Source: Candidatus Nitrosotenuis aquarius
GTDB taxonomy: Archaea; Thermoproteota; Nitrososphaeria; Nitrososphaerales; Nitrosopumilaceae
Length of the DNA stretch: 64,000 bases
Reading direction: 5' to 3'
Assembly (NCBI RefSeq): GCF_002787055.1
Contig: NZ_CP024808.1
Location: 1,514,328 to 1,578,327 of the forward strand
Shown: positions 54,909 through 64,000 of the stretch, one piece after another
How positions within the stretch are numbered: the first letter of the stretch is position 1
Layout of the letters: each line of letters opens with the position of its first letter
Notes under the pieces: generated by a model
What the model was told of the DNA's origin: nothing
Seen by the model: only the letters and a program-made list of their open reading frames with translations
Database searches by the model: none
Program-made: the position numbers and the translations under genes

Positions 54909-56396
54909 ATGATAGAAATCACATCAACTCCAATTGTCCTGATTGCAATACTGGGTACAATCGGCATGATTCTGCCGGTGATATCCGTAGTACGAAAGGA
55001 AAAGGGATCCAACTCGTTTTATGCGGCAATTGCATTTGGTGCACTGATAGCATCAATTGGCTATGTTGCATACGAGATAGTCTCAGGCCAGCTTCCACCG
55101 GCAGCGGTATTTTCTGCAGATGTTCTTGCAAATGACTCCTTTAGCGGACTATTTGCAATAGCAATGCTAATTGTAGCAATAATCACGACTGCAGGCTCGT
55201 TTAATTTCATGCGCGGACAAGCTCATCCGCCAGTCTACTATTCCCTGATACTGTTATCCACAATAGGAATGGTGCTTGTTGCATATTCTACTGACCTAGT
55301 GATGTTGTTTGTCGCATGGGAGCTAATGTCAATTCCGACATATGTCTTGGCTGGATTTATGAAAAAGAATCCAAGCTCAAACGAGGCTGCACTCAAGTAC
55401 TTCCTCTTTGGAGCACTGTCCTCAGCTATAATCATTTACGGAATCTCAATAGTATATGGCCTGACTGGCTCGACAAACATTGGCGAAGTCATGACAGGCC
55501 TTGCAAATCTGGATCCATCAATGATGCCGCTTGCCCTCTTGGCAGTAGGTATGTTCATTGCAGGATTTGGATTCAAGATGGGCCTAGTCCCATTCCACAT
55601 GTGGCTTCCAGACACCTATGAGGGTGCGCCCCCGACAATCACTGCTCTATTGGCAGCTGGAACCAAAAAGGCAGGATTTGCAGCCGCCCTTCGAGTAATC
55701 ATAATGGGTACTATAGCATTGCAGCTAGACTGGACGTTTGCATTGGGTGTTATTGCAGTAATGACAATGACTGTAGGAAACATTGCAGCTATAATGCAAA
55801 AGAACATTTCACGTATGCTTGCATATTCCAGTATCGGACATGCAGGATACATTTTGATTGGCCTGGCAGTTGCTCCGTTTACGTCACTGGGAATACAAGG
55901 ATCATTGTTCCATGTATTGAACCATTCTGTGATGAAGGGTGCCGCATTCATTGCAATTGCAGGCATTGTTACTACAATTGGTATAACAAATATCGATAAA
56001 CTCAAGGGCTTGGGCAGAAAGATGCCAATCACATCGCTAGGTCTAGTCATATCACTATTAGCACTGGCTGGCGTTCCACCAACTGCCGGATTCTGGAGCA
56101 AGCTGATTCTCTTTGGCTCTGCACTAGAAACAGGACTTCCTGCGTGGGCTGGCTGGCTTGCAATAGCAGGCGTTCTCAACTCTGCATTGTCTCTGGCGTA
56201 CTATGGTTGGATTATACGAAAGATGTACTTTGAGGGAGAAACTGAGAAAAAGATCAAGGAGCCAAAGGCAATCATTGGTGTTATGATATTTTCTATAATA
56301 TTCCTGGTCGGAATAGGAGTCTATCCAGACCCAATTATAGAATTCACAAAGAATGCAGTACCAATACTGGATAATGCACTTATAATTTCAAAGTAG
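54909..56396 (+). CDS. nuoN: Complex I subunit N (antiporter-like)
   Basis: 495 residues with about 14 helices. LFVAWELMSIPTYVLAGF, GLVPFHMWLPDTYEGAPP and NISRMLAYSSIGHAGYILIG identify NuoN. It is the last gene of the operon, 10 bases after nuoL with a GGGGAT that may serve as ribosome site. It overlaps the 3' end of the convergent prenyl synthase by 17 bases. Confidence 0.93.
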   Translation: MIEITSTPIVLIAILGTIGMILPVISVVRKEKGSNSFYAAIAFGALIASIGYVAYEIVSGQLPPAAVFSADVLANDSFSGLFAIAMLIVAIITTAGSFNFMRGQAHPPVYYSLILLSTIGMVLVAYSTDLVMLFVAWELMSIPTYVLAGFMKKNPSSNEAALKYFLFGALSSAIIIYGISIVYGLTGSTNIGEVMTGLANLDPSMMPLALLAVGMFIAGFGFKMGLVPFHMWLPDTYEGAPPTITALLAAGTKKAGFAAALRVIIMGTIALQLDWTFALGVIAVMTMTVGNIAAIMQKNISRMLAYSSIGHAGYILIGLAVAPFTSLGIQGSLFHVLNHSVMKGAAFIAIAGIVTTIGITNIDKLKGLGRKMPITSLGLVISLLALAGVPPTAGFWSKLILFGSALETGLPAWAGWLAIAGVLNSALSLAYYGWIIRKMYFEGETEKKIKEPKAIIGVMIFSIIFLVGIGVYPDPIIEFTKNAVPILDNALIISK

Positions 56397-57231
56397 TAAG
56401 TCTTAGCAAATATTCCAAATGCGACTTTGCATCATTGTCTGGAATTATTCTAAGACTGGCCGTAGCTTTTCCTGCATAATCCTTTAGCATTTTTTCCATG
56501 TGATTGAAAATGTCACGCGGGTCCATACTTCGCTTTACTAGTAGATTAAACAGCTTGTCTTCGTTTTTCCAGTCGATTAGATCATCTCGGATTTGATATG
56601 CAATTCCGATGTTTCGTCCGTATTCCGATAGTGCAACAATTTGGTCCTCACTTCCACCGCCGATTATTGCGCCAAGCCTTGATGATACCTCAAATGCTGT
56701 TGCGGTTTTGTATTCTATTACTTTGAGATAGTCATCAAATGTAAGGTCCTGGCTTGTCTCTAGCATTGTCTCTAGGACCTCGCCTTCACTCATCAGCATT
56801 GCAGTGTTTGCCAGGTCTTTTGTGATTCTTGGGTTGTTTAGCCTAGATGAAATGTTAAGGATTAATCCCAGGACAAAATCGCCAGTCAGAATACTTGTGT
56901 TGTATCCGTATTTGATGTGAAACGGGTCCTTGTGCCTTCGCGACGTTTCATTGTCGATAATATCATCATGAATTACAGATTCTGTGTGTAAAAATTCCAC
57001 TGCACAGCCTGCCGCAAATGCACGCTCATCCGCCTTGCCAACAGATTCTGCAGCCAGCAATAATATCAGGGGCCTGATTCTCTTTCCGCCTTCTATTGCG
57101 TACATGAGGGGCTGCATGAACTCTGACTTGGAATACAGTGATAATTCGGATTCTAGGGCGCTGTCTATTTTTTGTATATACTCTTTGTATGTGTCAAGTA
57201 ATGGATTGATTTTCAGATTTTTTCGATCCAA
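56380..57231 (-). CDS. Polyprenyl (geranylgeranyl-type) diphosphate synthase
   Basis: A trans-isoprenyl chain-elongating enzyme that supplies C20 or longer precursors for archaeal ether lipids and GDGTs or for quinone tails. The first Asp-rich motif is D89-D90-IID93 (ESVIHDDIID) and the second is D216-D217-LID220 (YQIRDDLID). GGKRIRPLILLLAAE binds IPP. 283 residues is a little short for the family (about 300-350). Product length cannot be fixed from sequence, although the residues before the first motif (AVEFLHTES) are those that set it. Confidence 0.9.
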   Translation of the reverse strand: MDRKNLKINPLLDTYKEYIQKIDSALESELSLYSKSEFMQPLMYAIEGGKRIRPLILLLAAESVGKADERAFAAGCAVEFLHTESVIHDDIIDNETSRRHKDPFHIKYGYNTSILTGDFVLGLILNISSRLNNPRITKDLANTAMLMSEGEVLETMLETSQDLTFDDYLKVIEYKTATAFEVSSRLGAIIGGGSEDQIVALSEYGRNIGIAYQIRDDLIDWKNEDKLFNLLVKRSMDPRDIFNHMEKMLKDYAGKATASLRIIPDNDAKSHLEYLLRLTTLKL

Positions 57232-57435: not shown

Positions 57436-58074
57436 ATGTCGCTTGCAAAAAAAATTGATCAGCTTATCGAGCAGAAGAGCTTACTCAAACACCCGTTTTA
57501 TCAAATGTGGTCAGAAGGCAAATTATCCAAAGAAATGCTTGCAGGCTATTCTAAAGAATACTTCCAAATGGTAAAGGCGGTCCCGTCTTTTGTTGGTATG
57601 ATTGTGCCCTACGCACCAGAATCAATGGTATCAGAAATCAAAGAAAACCAGCAGGAAGAATCCGAACACATTACTCCTTGGGCTCACTTTGCAGTATCCC
57701 TAGGCGTCCAAAACATAGAGTCCTATACAGGACTGGAAAAGACAACCTCTGCGGTCTATGAGCTATCTGGACTAATGACTTCGCTAGAGTCAGGAGCTGC
57801 CGCAATGTATGCATTTGAAAAAGAAATTCCAAAGATAAGTCACACAAAACTAGAGGGCTTGGCAAAATTCTACAATATCACTTCAGATTCTGCAACAGAG
57901 TACTTTAGACTGCACGAGGAAGCAGATATTAGACATGCAGCAACATGGGAAAAAATCCTAGATACCATTCCAGAAGAAAAACATTCAGAATTTTTGGCAA
58001 TTGCAGAAAAGTCACTGGATGCACAAAACCATCTGTTGGATAGCTGCTACGAAAATTACTGCACATCTCTATAA
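57436..58074 (+). CDS. Haem-oxygenase-like (TenA/PqqC/CADD) metalloprotein, candidate p-aminobenzoate synthase
   Basis: 212 residues, all helical. It begins with the family's HPFYQMWSEGKLS. The metal ligands HxxxDxxH are H160, D164 and H167, with a Glu (E128) 32 residues before H160 and further acidic/His residues around E74-H78. This spacing matches CADD-type HDO enzymes. K138 and Y22 fall where CADD has the Lys and Tyr it consumes to make p-aminobenzoate. TenA (thiamine) and PqqC are other members of the fold, but both lack this ligand set. A T-rich TATA (TTTTTTTATT) lies about 25 bases upstream. No pathway neighbours. Confidence 0.78.
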   Translation: MSLAKKIDQLIEQKSLLKHPFYQMWSEGKLSKEMLAGYSKEYFQMVKAVPSFVGMIVPYAPESMVSEIKENQQEESEHITPWAHFAVSLGVQNIESYTGLEKTTSAVYELSGLMTSLESGAAAMYAFEKEIPKISHTKLEGLAKFYNITSDSATEYFRLHEEADIRHAATWEKILDTIPEEKHSEFLAIAEKSLDAQNHLLDSCYENYCTSL

Positions 58075-58107: not shown

Positions 58108-58181
58108 GGGCCCATAACTCAGCTTGGTAGAGTAACCGGCTCATAACCGGTGAGCCAAGGGATCGAAGCCCTTTGGGCCCA
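58108..58181 (+). tRNA. tRNA with CAT anticodon: elongator Met or Ile2; integration target
   Basis: The acceptor GGGCCCA/TGGGCCC, the anticodon stem ACCGG/CCGGT around CTCATAA and the T-arm AAGGG/CCCTT form a complete cloverleaf with no intron and no encoded CCA. It lacks initiator features, so it is either elongator Met or the Ile2 tRNA that TiaS modifies; sequence alone does not decide. Its 3' end is 4 bases from the end of the out-of-frame integrase tail, so it is the likely attachment site of the element that follows. Confidence 0.92.
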
Positions 58182-58184
58182 TCT

Positions 58185-58316
58185 CTACATTACCAGTGGG
58201 CACCTTTTCAGTATGACCTTTCCGTTTGGAAGAGTTCCGACGTATTGCCATCCGTCAGCTATTAGTTGCTCAGACTCGTCTGCCGTTGCGACTCGCTGCT
58301 TGTATTGCCGCCTCTC
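58185..58316 (-). pseudogene. Out-of-frame C-terminal tail of the integrase
   Basis: In the -1 frame relative to the integrase, 43 codons to a TAG at 58185-58187 encode a typical archaeal integrase ending: ADESEQLIADGWQYV then GTLPNGKVILKR. The main frame instead ends in tandem stops (TAATAG) at 58262 after a Ser/Gln-rich stretch with no family likeness. A single-base indel between about 58265 and 58316, or a programmed -1 shift, would join them. The tail ends 4 bases from the tRNA. Confidence 0.75.
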
Positions 58317-59614
58317 AGATCACTAAGAAGCTCTAGCACCCTTGCGAGTTCCTCCGGCCTCATCGTCTCTATCTTTGTCTTTGCATCTTCCTTTTGTTTT
58401 TCCAACGGGTCCTCTGTTGCCTTTTCCAGATCAAGAAACTCCTCGCTTCTCTTGAACGCGTCACGCATTTCGTCTGTCAGGATTTTTGGTAGTATCCCTT
58501 TGTTCGTAGTGTACTTGGATTCAATGCTTCCACGATGTCCCATAAAGAACACACGAAAGTCATGTGCTATCTTTCCCCTCGACTCCGCAATGAGTAGTTG
58601 CGTGTCAAAGTATGCGCGCAGCACATACGGTCTCCATGTGAATCTTGGTCTCATAGCTGTTCTCACGTCGTCCACTATCACCTGTGTCTTGACGAATTTC
58701 TTGCCGATGTTGTTTCCTCGCCATCTAGTCAGCTTGCTTGGTGCAATGACTGGGGACTCTGGACCAAGCGAATCACCGTCCATTATCCTCTGGTTGAGGT
58801 ATGCAAGAAGTCTCTTTCCACCAAGATCTGTGATGAAGGTGAAGTATTCGTGTCGCGCCTTTGATAGTGTTCTTCTGACAACTATCTTTGCCGGGCTTCT
58901 GGTAAAGACTGCGAGTCCCTGAATGATTGCAAGGTCTGGCAAATCCCTGATGGACAGACCGTCACTTGCGTCATAGTTACCAAGAACTTCGGGGCGAAGA
59001 CCTGATTTTCCAATCAGTGCCATTATTGCGCCCTGTCTCATGTTTGCCCTGTTGAACAGTTCTGCAAGCTCGTTTCCCTCTGGAACCCTCTCGTTCTCAA
59101 GAGTTGGTGTGGAGTCGATGTTCTTGATTTTGATCTTTCTTTTGATCTCTACGTCGAAATGACGAAGCCAGGATTTCACGGATGTCAAAAGTCCCTTGAT
59201 GTATTGCGGCGCATTTCCGTTTTCCTCAAGACGCGTTATGTAGTCCTGCAACAAGTCTGTTGCAGTCCTGATGTCCTTCATCCCTAATTCGGCAAACTGC
59301 ATCGGGGTAATGTCGTGGTCTTCAAGGAACTTTCGAAGTCTTCTCAGTCTCACGTCTGCCGTTATCGGGCTTCCACGTGCGACATTTTTGTACCATCTGT
59401 GTACGTCTGGATTGGCAAGAAGTCTCTGTTTTTTGGATATTTTTTGAATTTTGGCAGTGTTGTTCGTTGTTGTGTATGTTGTGTTTTTTCCCATATCGAT
59501 CCCCTCGTCGGGGATTTCATTGGAAATAGAGGGGTCGTCTCCGGTATTTAGCTTTTCTCGGTGTGGACAGTTGACCAAGTCGTTGCTGCTCTTGGATGGA
59601 AAAGGATCTATCAA
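58262..59614 (-). CDS. int: Tyrosine recombinase/integrase
   Basis: 450 residues in the intact frame. An N-terminal helical core-binding (SAM-like) domain spans about 65-160. Catalytic residues are R207 (SGLRPEVLGNY), a Lys in TLSKARHEY, R333 in RPYVLRAYFDTQ (Tyr in place of the usual His of HxxR, as in many archaeal integrases), H360 (MGHRGSIE) and the nucleophile Y368 (SKYTTNKG). It starts at TTG 59614, overlapping the upstream gene by 4 bases; an ATG at 59494 after a GAGGGG sequence is an alternative. The last residues are probably frameshifted. It should integrate the element at the adjacent tRNA gene. Confidence 0.92.
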   Translation of the reverse strand: MIDPFPSKSSNDLVNCPHREKLNTGDDPSISNEIPDEGIDMGKNTTYTTTNNTAKIQKISKKQRLLANPDVHRWYKNVARGSPITADVRLRRLRKFLEDHDITPMQFAELGMKDIRTATDLLQDYITRLEENGNAPQYIKGLLTSVKSWLRHFDVEIKRKIKIKNIDSTPTLENERVPEGNELAELFNRANMRQGAIMALIGKSGLRPEVLGNYDASDGLSIRDLPDLAIIQGLAVFTRSPAKIVVRRTLSKARHEYFTFITDLGGKRLLAYLNQRIMDGDSLGPESPVIAPSKLTRWRGNNIGKKFVKTQVIVDDVRTAMRPRFTWRPYVLRAYFDTQLLIAESRGKIAHDFRVFFMGHRGSIESKYTTNKGILPKILTDEMRDAFKRSEEFLDLEKATEDPLEKQKEDAKTKIETMRPEELARVLELLSDLRGGNTSSESQRQTSLSN

Positions 59615-60357
59615 AGCTCACCATCACCATCGTAAAGACTGTCCCTGCGTTTTCTTTGAGTCATATTATCAAAGGCGGGATCAAGATTGTACTGATCCAC
59701 AATCCTGTCTGTGGCAAGAGTCTCAGAGGGTGTTCCAGAGCCTGAAAATAACTCATCTGCCTTCTTCATCTCGTCTGCTAGGTGCTCAAATTCAGGCATG
59801 CTTTCTCTTACTTCTAGGGTTTCGCTTTTCAGCTCATTCATCTGGTTTCTGATCTTGTCAACCTGTTCAAGGATGTCAGAATGCCATGGCTGGATTGGTT
59901 CATCTAGGAATTCTTTTGTGAACTCCAGTACTGTGGTTTTGTCTTCTGGATTACTTCTTATCTCAAATGAGCGCTGGGCGATGCGGTCAGCCAACTCGCT
60001 TGCCATTTCGTATTTTTCCGCTGAAATCTCTTTGTCGTTATTGAGATTCTTGAGTTTCTCCATTGCATCGTGAAGTATCTTGTCTGAGAACTCGTCTACC
60101 TCCTTTTGTGAGAATCTTGTCTCCTGTTGAATTCTTGGTGCGTTTATCTTGTAGGTATTTGTGTCGGATTCAAAGCTTCTAGACATCCCACTGAGTTCAG
60201 GCTTTTCGAGTTTGTTTCTTATTTTTCTGTCATACTCACTCATTGGAGGGGATGTGTGTCTGTATGCTGCAAGTGGATCCCTCTGTGCCATGTAACCTGA
60301 CTTGTATCCTCCGTATCCGCCGCCAAACCCCTTGGAGTATTTCTTTTTGTAGGACAA
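59611..60357 (-). CDS. Coiled-coil element protein, unknown
   Basis: 248 residues, TTG start. The N-terminus is Gly/Tyr/Lys-rich and probably disordered (KGFGGGYGGYKSGY). The rest is charged and helical, with predicted coiled coils around 80-130 and 165-210. No enzyme motif. It lies one base after the ATPase stop and overlaps the integrase start. It may be a partner of the translocase or a DNA-binding accessory; this is inferred from position only. Confidence 0.7.
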   Translation of the reverse strand: MSYKKKYSKGFGGGYGGYKSGYMAQRDPLAAYRHTSPPMSEYDRKIRNKLEKPELSGMSRSFESDTNTYKINAPRIQQETRFSQKEVDEFSDKILHDAMEKLKNLNNDKEISAEKYEMASELADRIAQRSFEIRSNPEDKTTVLEFTKEFLDEPIQPWHSDILEQVDKIRNQMNELKSETLEVRESMPEFEHLADEMKKADELFSGSGTPSETLATDRIVDQYNLDPAFDNMTQRKRRDSLYDGDGEL

Positions 60358-60358
60358 C

Positions 60359-62578
60359 TTAGTCTGTCACACCATTGTTTCCGCCATCTTTCCGGTTTTG
60401 TTCAGAATCAGGAACGGCAGGGTCTGGACCCTCGATGTTTCCGCTCTTCTCCGGGCCCTTTATTACATCGTCAAGTAACTCCACATAATCCCGAATTAAT
60501 CCAATCCAAATCTTTTCTTTTGGAATGTTTTCCATCCTCTCCAGCTTTGATCTTGCAAACTGGAAAGCCGATTCTTCTCTGTATAGCAGTACCAATTCAT
60601 CCACCTCTCGGTCTGTCAGCACTCTGACCTTGTTCTCAACATCCTTTGTTGAAAGCTCGATTTCCACTGCCTTGCGGTGCCCATTCAATTCCTCGTAGAG
60701 ATCTACCCTTCGACCGTCCTTGAGGTCGTATTCCACTCTGCCGTTCCAGCCCAGTATCTTGTGCTTGACTCTGAGCACATTGAGCCAATAATGATGCTCG
60801 TACCCTGGAACGCCGGAAATCCACTTCCAGTAGCCGATCCTCTGTGCAGGTCTGCCTAGAATCTTCATTATCTCCAAGGCGTTTGGAGTGAGGGAAAAGT
60901 GGATTCTGTCATGGACCTTCACTGGGAATTTCTGTATTCTAATCAGGTTTTTGTCAAGCAGGTCTTGCTTCACCTTGGCAAATTTCCTGTCAGATATTCC
61001 AAGTGCCTCTGTTATCTGCTGCTGGTAGCTCCACTCATGAAAGAACACATAGTCAAGAAGCAACCATCCCTCCTTTGTGAGGTCTGGCAGGTGTACCTCC
61101 TCTGATTTCTTTTCAACCTGAACCATGAACATCCTGCTTTCAATTTCCTGTCGCTTCATGTCAAGTGCAGTAATGAGCGGCCTTGATCTTTGCAGTACCT
61201 CTGCATCTGCTATCAGATCCCCTTTCTTTATGTCAAGAGTCTTTAGAACAAACGGTTTTGTTCTTCCGGCAACTCTTGCAATCCAAGTTCCCTTTTCCAG
61301 TTTTCCGAGTATTTTCTCAGAATCCCTGTCCAATCCAAGCGAAGAGGAAAGATTTCTCTGCTGATCACTTTCAACTATGTTTCCAACAATCATGGTACCG
61401 GCATTGTCCTTGAATGCATCCATCACTAAATGTGGGAACTGAGTTAGTGCAAATGTGCCGAGCATCATCTCGCGGCTCTGGCTGAAAAAAGTAGCAAGTG
61501 GGGGCAAAGACAGCTCTGTAGACACAAGGCTTCTTTCTTGGCCGCTGTACTGTGTAAGGTGAGCTTCGTCCATAATTATTTTACAGAATTTAGACTTAAA
61601 CTCGCTATCTAGAGTAGACTTCCGGTTGAGTCTTATCTGGTTGTAGAGTCTTCGGTAAAACTCGTGCATGATTATGGTCTGGATAAGAAACGATGCCACC
61701 GAGAAATCCAGCGGAAACATCTCGATTATGATTCGTCTTTTGAAAAGTTCCTTGATCTCAAATCCGTGTTTTACGTTGATTACTTTGTCCAGTGCCTGAT
61801 TGATGTTGAATATTCTGTTTTCCGCGATTGCGGAATATTCGTTCTCCTTTCTGCTTTCGCTGTGCTGCGATTTGAGGTGGTTCTCCAGTTCACGGAATGT
61901 CACCTGTCCCTTGTTGTGCTCATACAATTCTTCTAGTGAGCGAAGAATGTGGGCAGGTGTCGCCATCAAGAGGCCCTGTGAGTGTGCTGCGATATCCAAG
62001 ACAACTCTCCACCACAGCTTTATGTCCATGCCTTCTGGACAGTTTGTCAAAACGTTGTATGCAAGCTCGTGCCATCTTATGACGTAAACGTCATCGTATT
62101 TTTTGGCAAGAGTTCTATAGTCCTGCTTCCAGTCAAAGGAAAGAAAGCATATTTCATGTTTGATCAACTGATCAACAAAGTTGAAGACTGTGGTGGTCTT
62201 TCCATGGCCTGACCTGGCAACTACAAATTCATTTTCACGTAGATTTTCACTGGTGAGGCCGAAGGGGTGTAGCACTCTGTCTCCAGAGCAAACATGTCCG
62301 ATGATCACTCCATCACCAATTGCGTCTGCCTTTGACGGAAATGAGAGCAATGGATTCTTTGATCTCATTGAATGTTCATTGAATTTTGTCTCGACCAAAC
62401 TCTTTATCTTGTCAACCAGCTTCTTTCGCCTTCTCTCGTTTGCATACGGCAGCATCCTCAACAGAGTGTCGATGTAGCCTGTGGGGAGTCCTGGAATCTT
62501 TGAGACCTTGTCCATTATCTCCTGTCTGAAATCATCTATCTCAGACAAACTCAAGACTCCTGAATACTTTGATTGCAA
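60359..62578 (-). CDS. HerA/TraG-like DNA translocase fused to winged helix and nuclease-like domain
   Basis: 739 residues. Walker A is ARSGHGKTT (121-129) and Walker B is KIIMDEAHL (333-341), followed by a sensor-like TQFPH; this is a FtsK/HerA-family pump. After the ATPase come a winged-helix region (about 505-570) and a domain (about 590-690) with D626 and E639-I-E641 in RRVDLYEE and AVEIELSTK. That pattern resembles the PD-(D/E)XK-like fold of replication-relaxation proteins. A hydrophilic Pro/Gly/Asn tail ends the chain. The start is uncertain: TTG 62578 overlaps the upstream gene by 38 bases, and ATG 62515 would also keep the ATPase. It probably moves element DNA during transfer. Confidence 0.82.
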   Translation of the reverse strand: MQSKYSGVLSLSEIDDFRQEIMDKVSKIPGLPTGYIDTLLRMLPYANERRRKKLVDKIKSLVETKFNEHSMRSKNPLLSFPSKADAIGDGVIIGHVCSGDRVLHPFGLTSENLRENEFVVARSGHGKTTTVFNFVDQLIKHEICFLSFDWKQDYRTLAKKYDDVYVIRWHELAYNVLTNCPEGMDIKLWWRVVLDIAAHSQGLLMATPAHILRSLEELYEHNKGQVTFRELENHLKSQHSESRKENEYSAIAENRIFNINQALDKVINVKHGFEIKELFKRRIIIEMFPLDFSVASFLIQTIIMHEFYRRLYNQIRLNRKSTLDSEFKSKFCKIIMDEAHLTQYSGQERSLVSTELSLPPLATFFSQSREMMLGTFALTQFPHLVMDAFKDNAGTMIVGNIVESDQQRNLSSSLGLDRDSEKILGKLEKGTWIARVAGRTKPFVLKTLDIKKGDLIADAEVLQRSRPLITALDMKRQEIESRMFMVQVEKKSEEVHLPDLTKEGWLLLDYVFFHEWSYQQQITEALGISDRKFAKVKQDLLDKNLIRIQKFPVKVHDRIHFSLTPNALEIMKILGRPAQRIGYWKWISGVPGYEHHYWLNVLRVKHKILGWNGRVEYDLKDGRRVDLYEELNGHRKAVEIELSTKDVENKVRVLTDREVDELVLLYREESAFQFARSKLERMENIPKEKIWIGLIRDYVELLDDVIKGPEKSGNIEGPDPAVPDSEQNRKDGGNNGVTD

Positions 62579-62774
62579 GAAATGACATTACCATCACAAC
62601 CACTCCAGCTACTGCAAGTTGCAAGTAGACCGACGGAGAGTGCGGTGATAACATGTCGTTGAAGAACAGTATCAGCGCTATCGTAATGATGACTATTCCT
62701 GCACCCACTAAGAGCTTCATAACACTCAGAACGGTGCCGGAACTTCGGTTAGGCCCGCGATACATACTCCTCAA
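62541..62774 (-). CDS. Small protein with two transmembrane helices
   Basis: 77 residues, or about 59 from an inner ATG at 62720. Two hydrophobic segments (about 19-40 and 49-70) form a helical hairpin with short ends. It overlaps the zinc-ribbon gene by up to 26 bases and the translocase by up to 38, a coupled arrangement. It could anchor the translocase at the membrane, as small VirB/TraG partners do, but no homology is recognised. Confidence 0.65.
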   Translation of the reverse strand: MRSMYRGPNRSSGTVLSVMKLLVGAGIVIITIALILFFNDMLSPHSPSVYLQLAVAGVVVMVMSFLAIKVFRSLEFV

Positions 62775-63351
62775 TCCTCCCGTCCAAATCCTTCATGTCG
62801 TCCTTGCCTCCCAGAACCTGAGAATGCGCGTAGAATGCCTCGGTTCCAAGGTCTGTGAGACGCTTGCCTCCGAGAAATGATGTCGTGACATATCCTGAAT
62901 CTCTCAGAAAATCGACAATTCCTTTCATCTCATCCCTTGGTATTCCGGACACCTCGTTCATGTCGCGTTCACCTGTTATGCCGTTTGCAATCATCAGGAT
63001 GATCTTGAACACTTGTCTCGATATCGGATGGGTTTCTCTGAGATCTTGCAGACAGATTATCTCGTTTCTGAAATCAATGGCACAATTCTCGCAAAGTTTC
63101 TTGCCGCATTTTTTGCATAGCGATAGCTGATCAATTTTCCCAAAACAATAATCACACATTGTGATTCGTTTGGTGGTGACTACGCTGTCGTTTACTCTGG
63201 ACACTCGCTCGCTGTCCATCTCTCCCTCTCCAGCAACCTCGGTTCTCTCCTCCGTTATGATTTCGTTGTTTGTTGGCATGTCCTCAAGTCTTTGCAATCG
63301 TAACTCAATCTCGCCGAGCTTTTCCAGAATTCTGTCGGTATCCGATGTCAT
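62749..63351 (-). CDS. Zinc-ribbon and winged-helix protein
   Basis: 200 residues in three parts: a coiled coil (about 5-30), a zinc site with CDYC and CKKCGKKLCENC (about 66-92), and a C-terminal winged helix (about 115-190; ERDMNEVSGIPRDEMKGIV then GYVTTSFLGGKRLTDLG). It fits a DNA-binding regulator or adaptor. Its ATG overlaps the stop of the ThiF-like gene by 4 bases, so the two are translated together. The combination is not one I can name. Confidence 0.75.
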   Translation of the reverse strand: MTSDTDRILEKLGEIELRLQRLEDMPTNNEIITEERTEVAGEGEMDSERVSRVNDSVVTTKRITMCDYCFGKIDQLSLCKKCGKKLCENCAIDFRNEIICLQDLRETHPISRQVFKIILMIANGITGERDMNEVSGIPRDEMKGIVDFLRDSGYVTTSFLGGKRLTDLGTEAFYAHSQVLGGKDDMKDLDGRIEEYVSRA

Positions 63352-64000
63352 CTCCCAAGCCCCCTGATCCTATGTCTTAGTTTTTTTACGAGTCCTTTGG
63401 TGTGTGACTTTCTGATTTCTTTCGTTTTTTCTTCCTCATGTTTGAGCCAATTCTCATAGTTGCATGTGGCGCAGAGGTCTTTCTTTGGGACGTTGAGTTT
63501 CTCTACCCTTAGGTCGTCGTAGTATCTGACAAGATTGAAGATGAACTCTTTTCCAAGTAGGAGCCAAAGCGTCATTTTTACCATCATTGATCCTGGGATG
63601 GTAATGTCAGCAAACATTCCCTGTGCTGCTTTCAGCTCACCCTCTTCTAGGCCGTATTTTCGTCTCAATGTATTTTGGTCGATTGCAGCACTTGTGAGGC
63701 TGAATATGCAGTCAAAGCACGCATGTGAGCCTGATGAGACGCAGAACACGTATGCGCTCTTTGCCCCGGCGTATATCCCACAGTATACTGCTTTCTTGCC
63801 CAGTTCGCAGCAAATGACATTTGTGTGATAGTTCAGTTCCGGGTTTCCAGATGCCGCAACTATGATGTCGCATGATTCTATGATCGAGCGCAACAACTCT
63901 CTATTCTTTATCAGGTCGTCCTCCACCGTCTGCACCACTGCGAGGGGATTGTGTGACTCGATGTGTCTTTTGATTATCTGAGTCTTTGATCTGCCGATAT
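63348..64000 (-). CDS. ThiF/E1-like adenylyltransferase-fold protein, 5' end outside window
   Basis: The frame is open to the window edge. Its first residues, IGRSKTQIIKRHIESHNP, match the helix after the nucleotide loop of ThiF/MoeB/E1 proteins. Then come SCDIIVAASGNPELNYHTN (the usual D-x-x-D loop position) and two zinc pairs, ACFDCIF and LCATCNYENW. A basic tail follows (KGLVKKLRHRIRGLGR). No obvious catalytic Cys appears in the visible part. The Gly-rich ATP loop would lie just outside. As mobile-element cargo it may serve a ubiquitin-like or thiolation system whose other genes lie upstream. Confidence 0.8.
   Translation of the reverse strand, partial: IGRSKTQIIKRHIESHNPLAVVQTVEDDLIKNRELLRSIIESCDIIVAASGNPELNYHTNVICCELGKKAVYCGIYAGAKSAYVFCVSSGSHACFDCIFSLTSAAIDQNTLRRKYGLEEGELKAAQGMFADITIPGSMMVKMTLWLLLGKEFIFNLVRYYDDLRVEKLNVPKKDLCATCNYENWLKHEEEKTKEIRKSHTKGLVKKLRHRIRGLGR

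Follow-up and report, generated by a model that had tools for sequence, protein, structure and literature searches.

A candidate self-sacrificing p-aminobenzoate synthase in ammonia-oxidising archaea

Ammonia-oxidising archaea are a very abundant group, and one gene in the window, by which we mean the whole stretch of 64,000 nucleotides of Candidatus Nitrosotenuis aquarius DNA analysed here, raises the question of how they obtain p-aminobenzoate (pABA). The initial annotation had read this gene as a CADD-like candidate source of pABA in an ammonia oxidiser. The host does encode AmoA, and the candidacy is supported by the conservation of Y22 and K138 together with the absence of PabB and PabC. 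CADD is CT610 of Chlamydia trachomatis (PDB 1rcw and 8va9). CT610 was linked to folate genes in 2007, when the missing pab genes of chlamydiae were noted (PMC1971073), and its residues Y27 and K152 are those consumed (PMC11965152). Where PMC11965152 lists holders of the self-sacrificing pABA synthase, they are bacteria only, and the passages of PMC11965152 and PMC13108848 on this kind of synthesis describe it in bacteria and make no mention of archaea. No publication on an archaeal CADD-type enzyme was found in the CC-licensed literature, which is not proof of novelty. We propose, with a probability of roughly 0.85, that the archaeal protein is a self-sacrificing pABA synthase supplying the aromatic part of folate. 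If this is true, a missing step of folate synthesis would be filled in a very abundant archaeal group, self-sacrificing pABA synthesis would be extended from bacteria to a second domain, and these archaea would need oxygen, together with iron or manganese, to make an essential cofactor.

The gene is a single open frame from ATG to stop (57436-58074, forward strand) encoding 212 amino acids. Its product matches the Pfam families TENA_THI-4 and Haem_oxygenas_2, and its specific match is NCBIfam TIGR04305 (fol_rel_CADD) with an E-value of 2.5e-46 and 158 bits, which is under the curated cut-off of 200 bits; none of the 150 genomes surveyed in the class exceeds that cut-off, and 44 of 44 aligned archaeal orthologues match the model. 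Using phmmer against PDB, the top three distinct sequences were all pABA synthases, namely 9pj4 (9e-33), 1rcw (3e-28) and 8va9 (5e-28). The first of these is the Nitrosomonas pABA synthase, the chain of which shares 99% identity with an N. ureae gene across 230 amino acids. A profile built from the 44 orthologues and run against PDB sequences gave 1.7e-44 to 2.2e-48 for the pABA synthases and 1.1e-08 for the next family, PqqC. The AlphaFold model (pLDDT 97.2, pTM 0.93) has a haem-oxygenase-like fold nearest to CADD: Foldseek placed CADD chains first (TM 0.86-0.90), and VIA-align placed 1rcw_B first (Z 28.3, 1.6 A, 204 residues aligned). The TIGR04305 and phmmer E-values indicate that the resemblance to the CADD family is not due to chance and, judged by its sequence, the 212-aa protein is distantly but clearly related to the self-sacrificing pABA synthases of the CADD/PabS type. 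Because the scores are too low for TIGR04305 and one of the ligand positions differs, we filed it as an archaeal variant and not as a member of that family; with the cut-off set where it is, the archaeal genes do not receive the CADD name. The features of the locus are collected in Table 1.

Table 1. Position of the gene, of its key codons and of adjoining features in the window
Feature	Position	Strand	Evidence
Proposed self-sacrificing pABA synthase (212 aa), a CADD/PabS-like archaeal dimetal oxidase of the haem-oxygenase fold	57436..58074	+	Homology, fold, conservation
Codon of Tyr22, the Tyr predicted to be sacrificed (Y27 in CADD, Y25 in Nitrosomonas)	57499..57501	+	Alignment; 106/106; role from PMC11965152
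Codon of Tyr38, counterpart of Nitrosomonas Y41, the second essential Tyr	57547..57549	+	106/106; PMC11965152
Asn71 codon, His-7 position (Glu in bacterial pABA synthases)	57646..57648	+	Asn 101/106, Glu 0/106 in archaea
Codon of Glu75 (His-3), proposed to stand in as the helix-3 carboxylate ligand	57658..57660	+	106/106; opposite CADD E81 in profile alignment
His78 codon, predicted helix-3 metal ligand	57667..57669	+	106/106
Glu128 codon, predicted metal ligand (CADD E142)	57817..57819	+	Alignment; 106/106
Codon of Lys138, predicted to donate the amino group (K152 in CADD, K159 in Nitrosomonas)	57847..57849	+	Alignment; 106/106; PMC11965152
Tyr156 codon, equivalent of CADD Y170 and Nitrosomonas F177, main metal-selecting position	57901..57903	+	Tyr 106/106 in archaea
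His160-xxx-Asp164-xx-His167, predicted metal ligands	57913..57936	+	Translation, alignment; each 106/106
Polyprenyl synthetase gene, divergent conserved neighbour, not a functional part	56380..57231	-	PF00348
Recombinase-like ORF	58262-59614		Weak XerA match
HerA-like ATPase	60359-62578		
ThiF-like protein	63348-63938		

To compare the residues, we used 106 orthologues, one per genome, all from the host's own archaeal order (Nitrososphaerales) and diverging as far as 43% identity. The translation contains Y22, E128, K138, H160, D164 and H167 as the initial annotation had stated, with the correct H160-xxx-D164-xx-H167 spacing and with E128 lying 32 residues ahead of H160. The match to CADD that it had proposed from the spacing of the metal ligands and the sacrificed Tyr and Lys is borne out by the pairwise phmmer alignment, in which these six residues stand opposite CADD Y27, E142, K152, H174, D178 and H181. 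The helix-3 ligands, H78 and its partner, had gone unmentioned; H78 aligns with CADD H88. Loss of Y22 or K138 among archaeal orthologues had been named beforehand as a refuting outcome; both residues are kept in 106/106 of them, as are Y38, Y42, H78, W82, E128, H160, D164 and H167; the bacterial relatives (80 loci among the matches listed) agree with the archaea at all ten of these catalytic or ligand positions. We take the metal ligands of CADD to be E81, H88, E142, H174, D178 and H181, five of which are matched here. The archaeal protein is thus like CADD in its fold, in the consumed Tyr and Lys, in the essential second Tyr and in five of six presumed ligands. It also has the equivalents of Y25, Y41, Y45, W99 and K159 of the Nitrosomonas enzyme (NePabS, ne1434), Y38, Y42 and W82 being Y41, Y45 and W99 in that numbering, and the host of NePabS is an ammonia oxidiser as well. 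In NePabS, Y41 is essential and changing Y45 or W99 to Phe leads to a significant loss of pABA production, and the metal site of the pABA synthases is described as three-His, three-carboxylate (PMC11965152).

The sixth presumed ligand is where the archaeal proteins depart from both CADD (about 29% identity) and NePabS (about 35% identity). CADD E81, seven residues before the helix-3 His (His-7), corresponds to Asn71 here. In the archaeal helix-3 motif, for example NQQEESEH, this position is Asn in 101 and Glu in none of the 106 proteins, whereas in the bacterial motif, for example NLIDEEHGEKNH, it is Glu in 80 of 80 loci among the matches listed; BesC also has Glu there by alignment. Three residues before the His (His-3), Glu75 is present in 106/106 archaeal proteins and also in 62 of the 80 bacterial loci among the matches listed, and at the neighbouring His-4 position 104 of the archaeal proteins have Glu and two have Asp. 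Alignment to the archaeal profile opens a four-residue gap, leaving the archaeal protein four residues shorter than CADD there, and sets E75 opposite CADD E81. Going by these alignments, a third carboxylate ligand, should one exist, must sit elsewhere than in bacteria. E75 is most likely this displaced helix-3 ligand, which is a speculative assignment; it could also be a retained second Glu, as bacteria often have a His-3 Glu. UndA (E101 and H104) has a Glu-xx-His spacing similar to that of E75-H78.

A second difference concerns the choice of metal. Position 156 is Tyr in 106/106 archaeal proteins, as at Y170 of CADD. All 80 bacterial loci among the matches listed have Phe there; in NePabS, an Fe/Fe enzyme, it is F177. 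The F177Y variant of the Nitrosomonas enzyme prefers Mn/Fe in place of Fe/Fe, and its F148Y variant accepts both (PMC11965152). The equivalent of F148 is Phe127 here, as in NePabS and unlike CADD, which has Y141; across the 106 archaeal proteins it is Phe in 75, Leu in 19 and Tyr in 12. Given the F177Y effect, a Tyr156 present in all archaeal proteins would predict, speculatively and by analogy, the use of Mn/Fe or indifference to the metal. The displaced Glu and the fixed Tyr156 would make these proteins a natural test of what determines metal choice in such enzymes.

The fold and the ligands would also suit another haem-oxygenase-fold oxidase, PqqC-, BesC- or UndA-like, that acts on a small molecule and resembles CADD in fold and ligands only. 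PqqC shares the fold (1otw, Z 26.6 against 28.3 for CADD), its model TIGR02111 matches the 212-aa protein at 6.8e-05, and the displaced helix-3 Glu separates the archaeal protein from CADD. This PqqC match is weak, at 22.4 bits against a cut-off of 240 bits, and in the search with the archaeal profile the E-values of PqqC and BesC lie about 36 to 40 orders of magnitude behind those of the pABA synthases. UndA, BesC and HrmI, which have in common with the archaeal protein the fold and the 3-His/3-carboxylate type of site, differ in being substrate-dependent and in their low sequence similarity to it. Moreover, Y22 and K138 are invariant, though an ordinary oxidase has no obvious need of them, and the weak archaeal PqqC-like relatives are without both the Tyr and the Lys in the alignments that cover the Y22 column. 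We consider an oxidase of this kind unlikely.

For a pABA synthase to be needed, the standard route should be missing. The initial annotation had named canonical pABA synthesis genes as evidence that would speak against its reading, and model searches found neither PabB nor PabC in the genome. The sole chorismate-binding protein is TrpE, best matched by TrpE-arch (471.8 bits, cut-off 512), with PabB models at 317 bits and below. Its gene is followed by trpG and by apparent trpD, C, B and A, the last four named by their order and first residues. The genome's TrpE and four other TrpE loci of the order carry the motif PIAGT at the place where PabB presumably has its catalytic Lys. The two class-IV aminotransferases of the genome are both above IlvE cut-offs and both short of any PabC cut-off. 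These proteins could in principle make pABA nonetheless, with TrpE and TrpG doubling as aminodeoxychorismate synthase, a promiscuous IlvE-type enzyme serving as lyase, and the CADD-like protein doing something else; TrpG does fall in the shared TrpG/PabA subfamily (TIGR00566, over cut-off), and two IlvE-like candidates are at hand. The preference of TrpE for its own model, its place among trp genes, the PIAGT motif and the PabC scores all speak against such doubling, which we regard as very unlikely.

The self-sacrificing synthase would have an outlet for its product. Dihydropteroate synthase (DHPS) is present (TIGR01496, 210.6 bits against a cut-off of 162.6); its gene lies upstream, roughly 5 kb outside the window, and adjoins a divergent MptE-like pterin pyrophosphokinase gene (PF01973). 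RFA-P synthase has no match in the genome and does not exceed its cut-off in any of the 113 genomes of the order; weak matches under the cut-off are taken as kinase-family background. Since DHPS is present and RFA-P synthase absent, the destination of pABA would be folate: of the two destinations suggested earlier, folate stands and tetrahydromethanopterin is rejected. Across the order, one chorismate-binding protein is found in 109 of the 113 genomes, none in four and two in none, and 112 of the 113 have a DHPS that scores above its cut-off. As a separate observation, the divergent pair of DHPS and MptE-like pyrophosphokinase (L040:7795-9413) is a mixed bacterial/archaeal folate arrangement; MptA/FolE2 (PF02649) was not found in the genome.

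The distribution of the gene was surveyed in 150 genomes of the class Nitrososphaeria, 113 from the host's order and 37 from outside it. The class search gave 110 matches, from which four weak genomes (G004, G020, G029 and G055) were left out, leaving 106; the G055 locus has no match to the archaeal profile. The gene is thus present in 106 of the 113 genomes of the order. It is absent from G095, G118, G123, G138, G144, G145 and G146, where a new search with the archaeal profile was also negative, and all of these except G095 have DHPS. Among the 150 genomes, 104 have both amoA and the gene, two the gene alone (G147 and G148), three amoA alone (G118, G123 and G146) and 41 neither, which amounts to 104 of 107 amoA-bearing genomes against two of 43 without amoA. 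That the gene tracks amoA is expected of an O2-using enzyme in aerobes, and the correlation reflects largely one clade, not many independent events. Two of the genomes lacking the gene, G123 and G146 (genus g15, about 0.8 Mb), have amoA, DHPS and TrpE, and a dependence on neighbours for pABA is possible in them. In family f4 of the same order, both genomes (G095 and G145) are without amoA and without the gene; G095, a single contig 100% complete, also has no match to a pterin-binding protein.

Of the 37 genomes that do not belong to the order, 18 carry DHPS above its cut-off and no CADD-like gene with the signature, and several genomes, such as the single-contig G008, are without any chorismate-binding protein. 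Genomes with DHPS that have neither the gene nor a chorismate-binding protein mean that a CADD-like enzyme cannot be deduced from the lack of PabB alone; other routes to pABA, or its uptake, must exist in the class, and the argument from absence is weakened. Uptake might also serve the hosts of the gene, the protein being a vestige or non-catalytic. Six DHPS-bearing genomes of the order live without the gene, including the two 0.8-Mb ones with amoA, and one medium described for N. maritimus contains added 4-aminobenzoate, so that pABA prototrophy is not established by that source (PMC8281238). A vestige would hardly keep its catalytic and ligand residues invariant over 106 orthologues with identities as low as 43%, and we hold this to be the least probable of the alternatives, with scarcely any chance of being right.

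Among 300 Thermoproteota genomes, TIGR04305 matches are weak apart from the host's own order. Ten such relatives were aligned with the archaeal profile. Three of the alignments begin past the Y22 column, and the seven that include it show neither Tyr at that column nor an aligned Lys at 138. With the Tyr missing from seven of seven, these proteins were not counted as pABA synthases. Weak CADD/PqqC-like proteins without the Tyr and the Lys include those of L047, L048, L049, L050 and L126, in other Thermoproteota.

The established part of the synthase proposal consists of homology, predicted fold, residue conservation, absent PabB and PabC and present DHPS; the chemistry up to the release of pABA would follow that of the bacterial enzymes. 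A dimetal site formed by H78, E128, H160, D164, H167 and the displaced helix-3 Glu (most likely E75) would be reduced and react with O2. The oxidising equivalent would pass through the conserved aromatics Y156, W82, Y42 and Y38 to Y22, whose side chain would be cut off, leaving Gly, with its outer carbon becoming a carboxylate that contains O2-derived oxygen. K138 would donate the amino group, pABA would be released and the spent protein would not be reused. Finally, DHPS would couple pABA to the pterin. A wider reading, to which we give even odds, would be that folate synthesis in ammonia-oxidising archaea needs O2 and the destruction of a one-use protein, that the enzyme is ancient and vertically inherited, with a site marked by E75 and Tyr156 that uses Mn/Fe or either metal, and that ammonia oxidisers of both domains are self-sacrificing in this way.

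To look at the history of the gene, a tree was built by a quick method from 67 chosen rows, 55 of the 106 archaeal and 12 of the 80 listed bacterial sequences. The archaeal and bacterial sets are fully apart. Family f1 forms one group (SH-aLRT 79), f2 one group (88) and f3 two pieces, and the tree thus largely follows families. The 80 bacterial loci listed, of 558 confirmed, are mainly from Nitrosomonadaceae, with a few from cyanobacteria and one from a Chlorobiales MAG; their taxonomic make-up is too narrow to tell where the archaeal clade came from. Gene neighbours were surveyed in 79 loci of more than 5 kb, a few genomes being represented twice or also by shorter loci. A polyprenyl synthetase family gene lies near in 68 of the 79; in almost all of these it is divergent and sits at -1 or -2. 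Complex I genes lie upstream in 70. The conserved neighbours and the tree fit vertical descent within the group. Folate genes do not adjoin the gene in the 79 loci, and the neighbours are uninformative on function. A mobile or viral origin was rejected, with no relative found on plasmids and none of 27 pattern matches in viral contigs confirmed.

On the downstream side, tRNA-Met (58108-58181) starts 33 bases beyond the gene. The stretch 58182-63938, with the recombinase-like, HerA-like and ThiF-like genes, is probably an integrated element whose far end was not found. Similarity to the sister genome G070 ends exactly at the 3' end of tRNA-Met (58181), and similarity to the relative G003 continues to about 58402.
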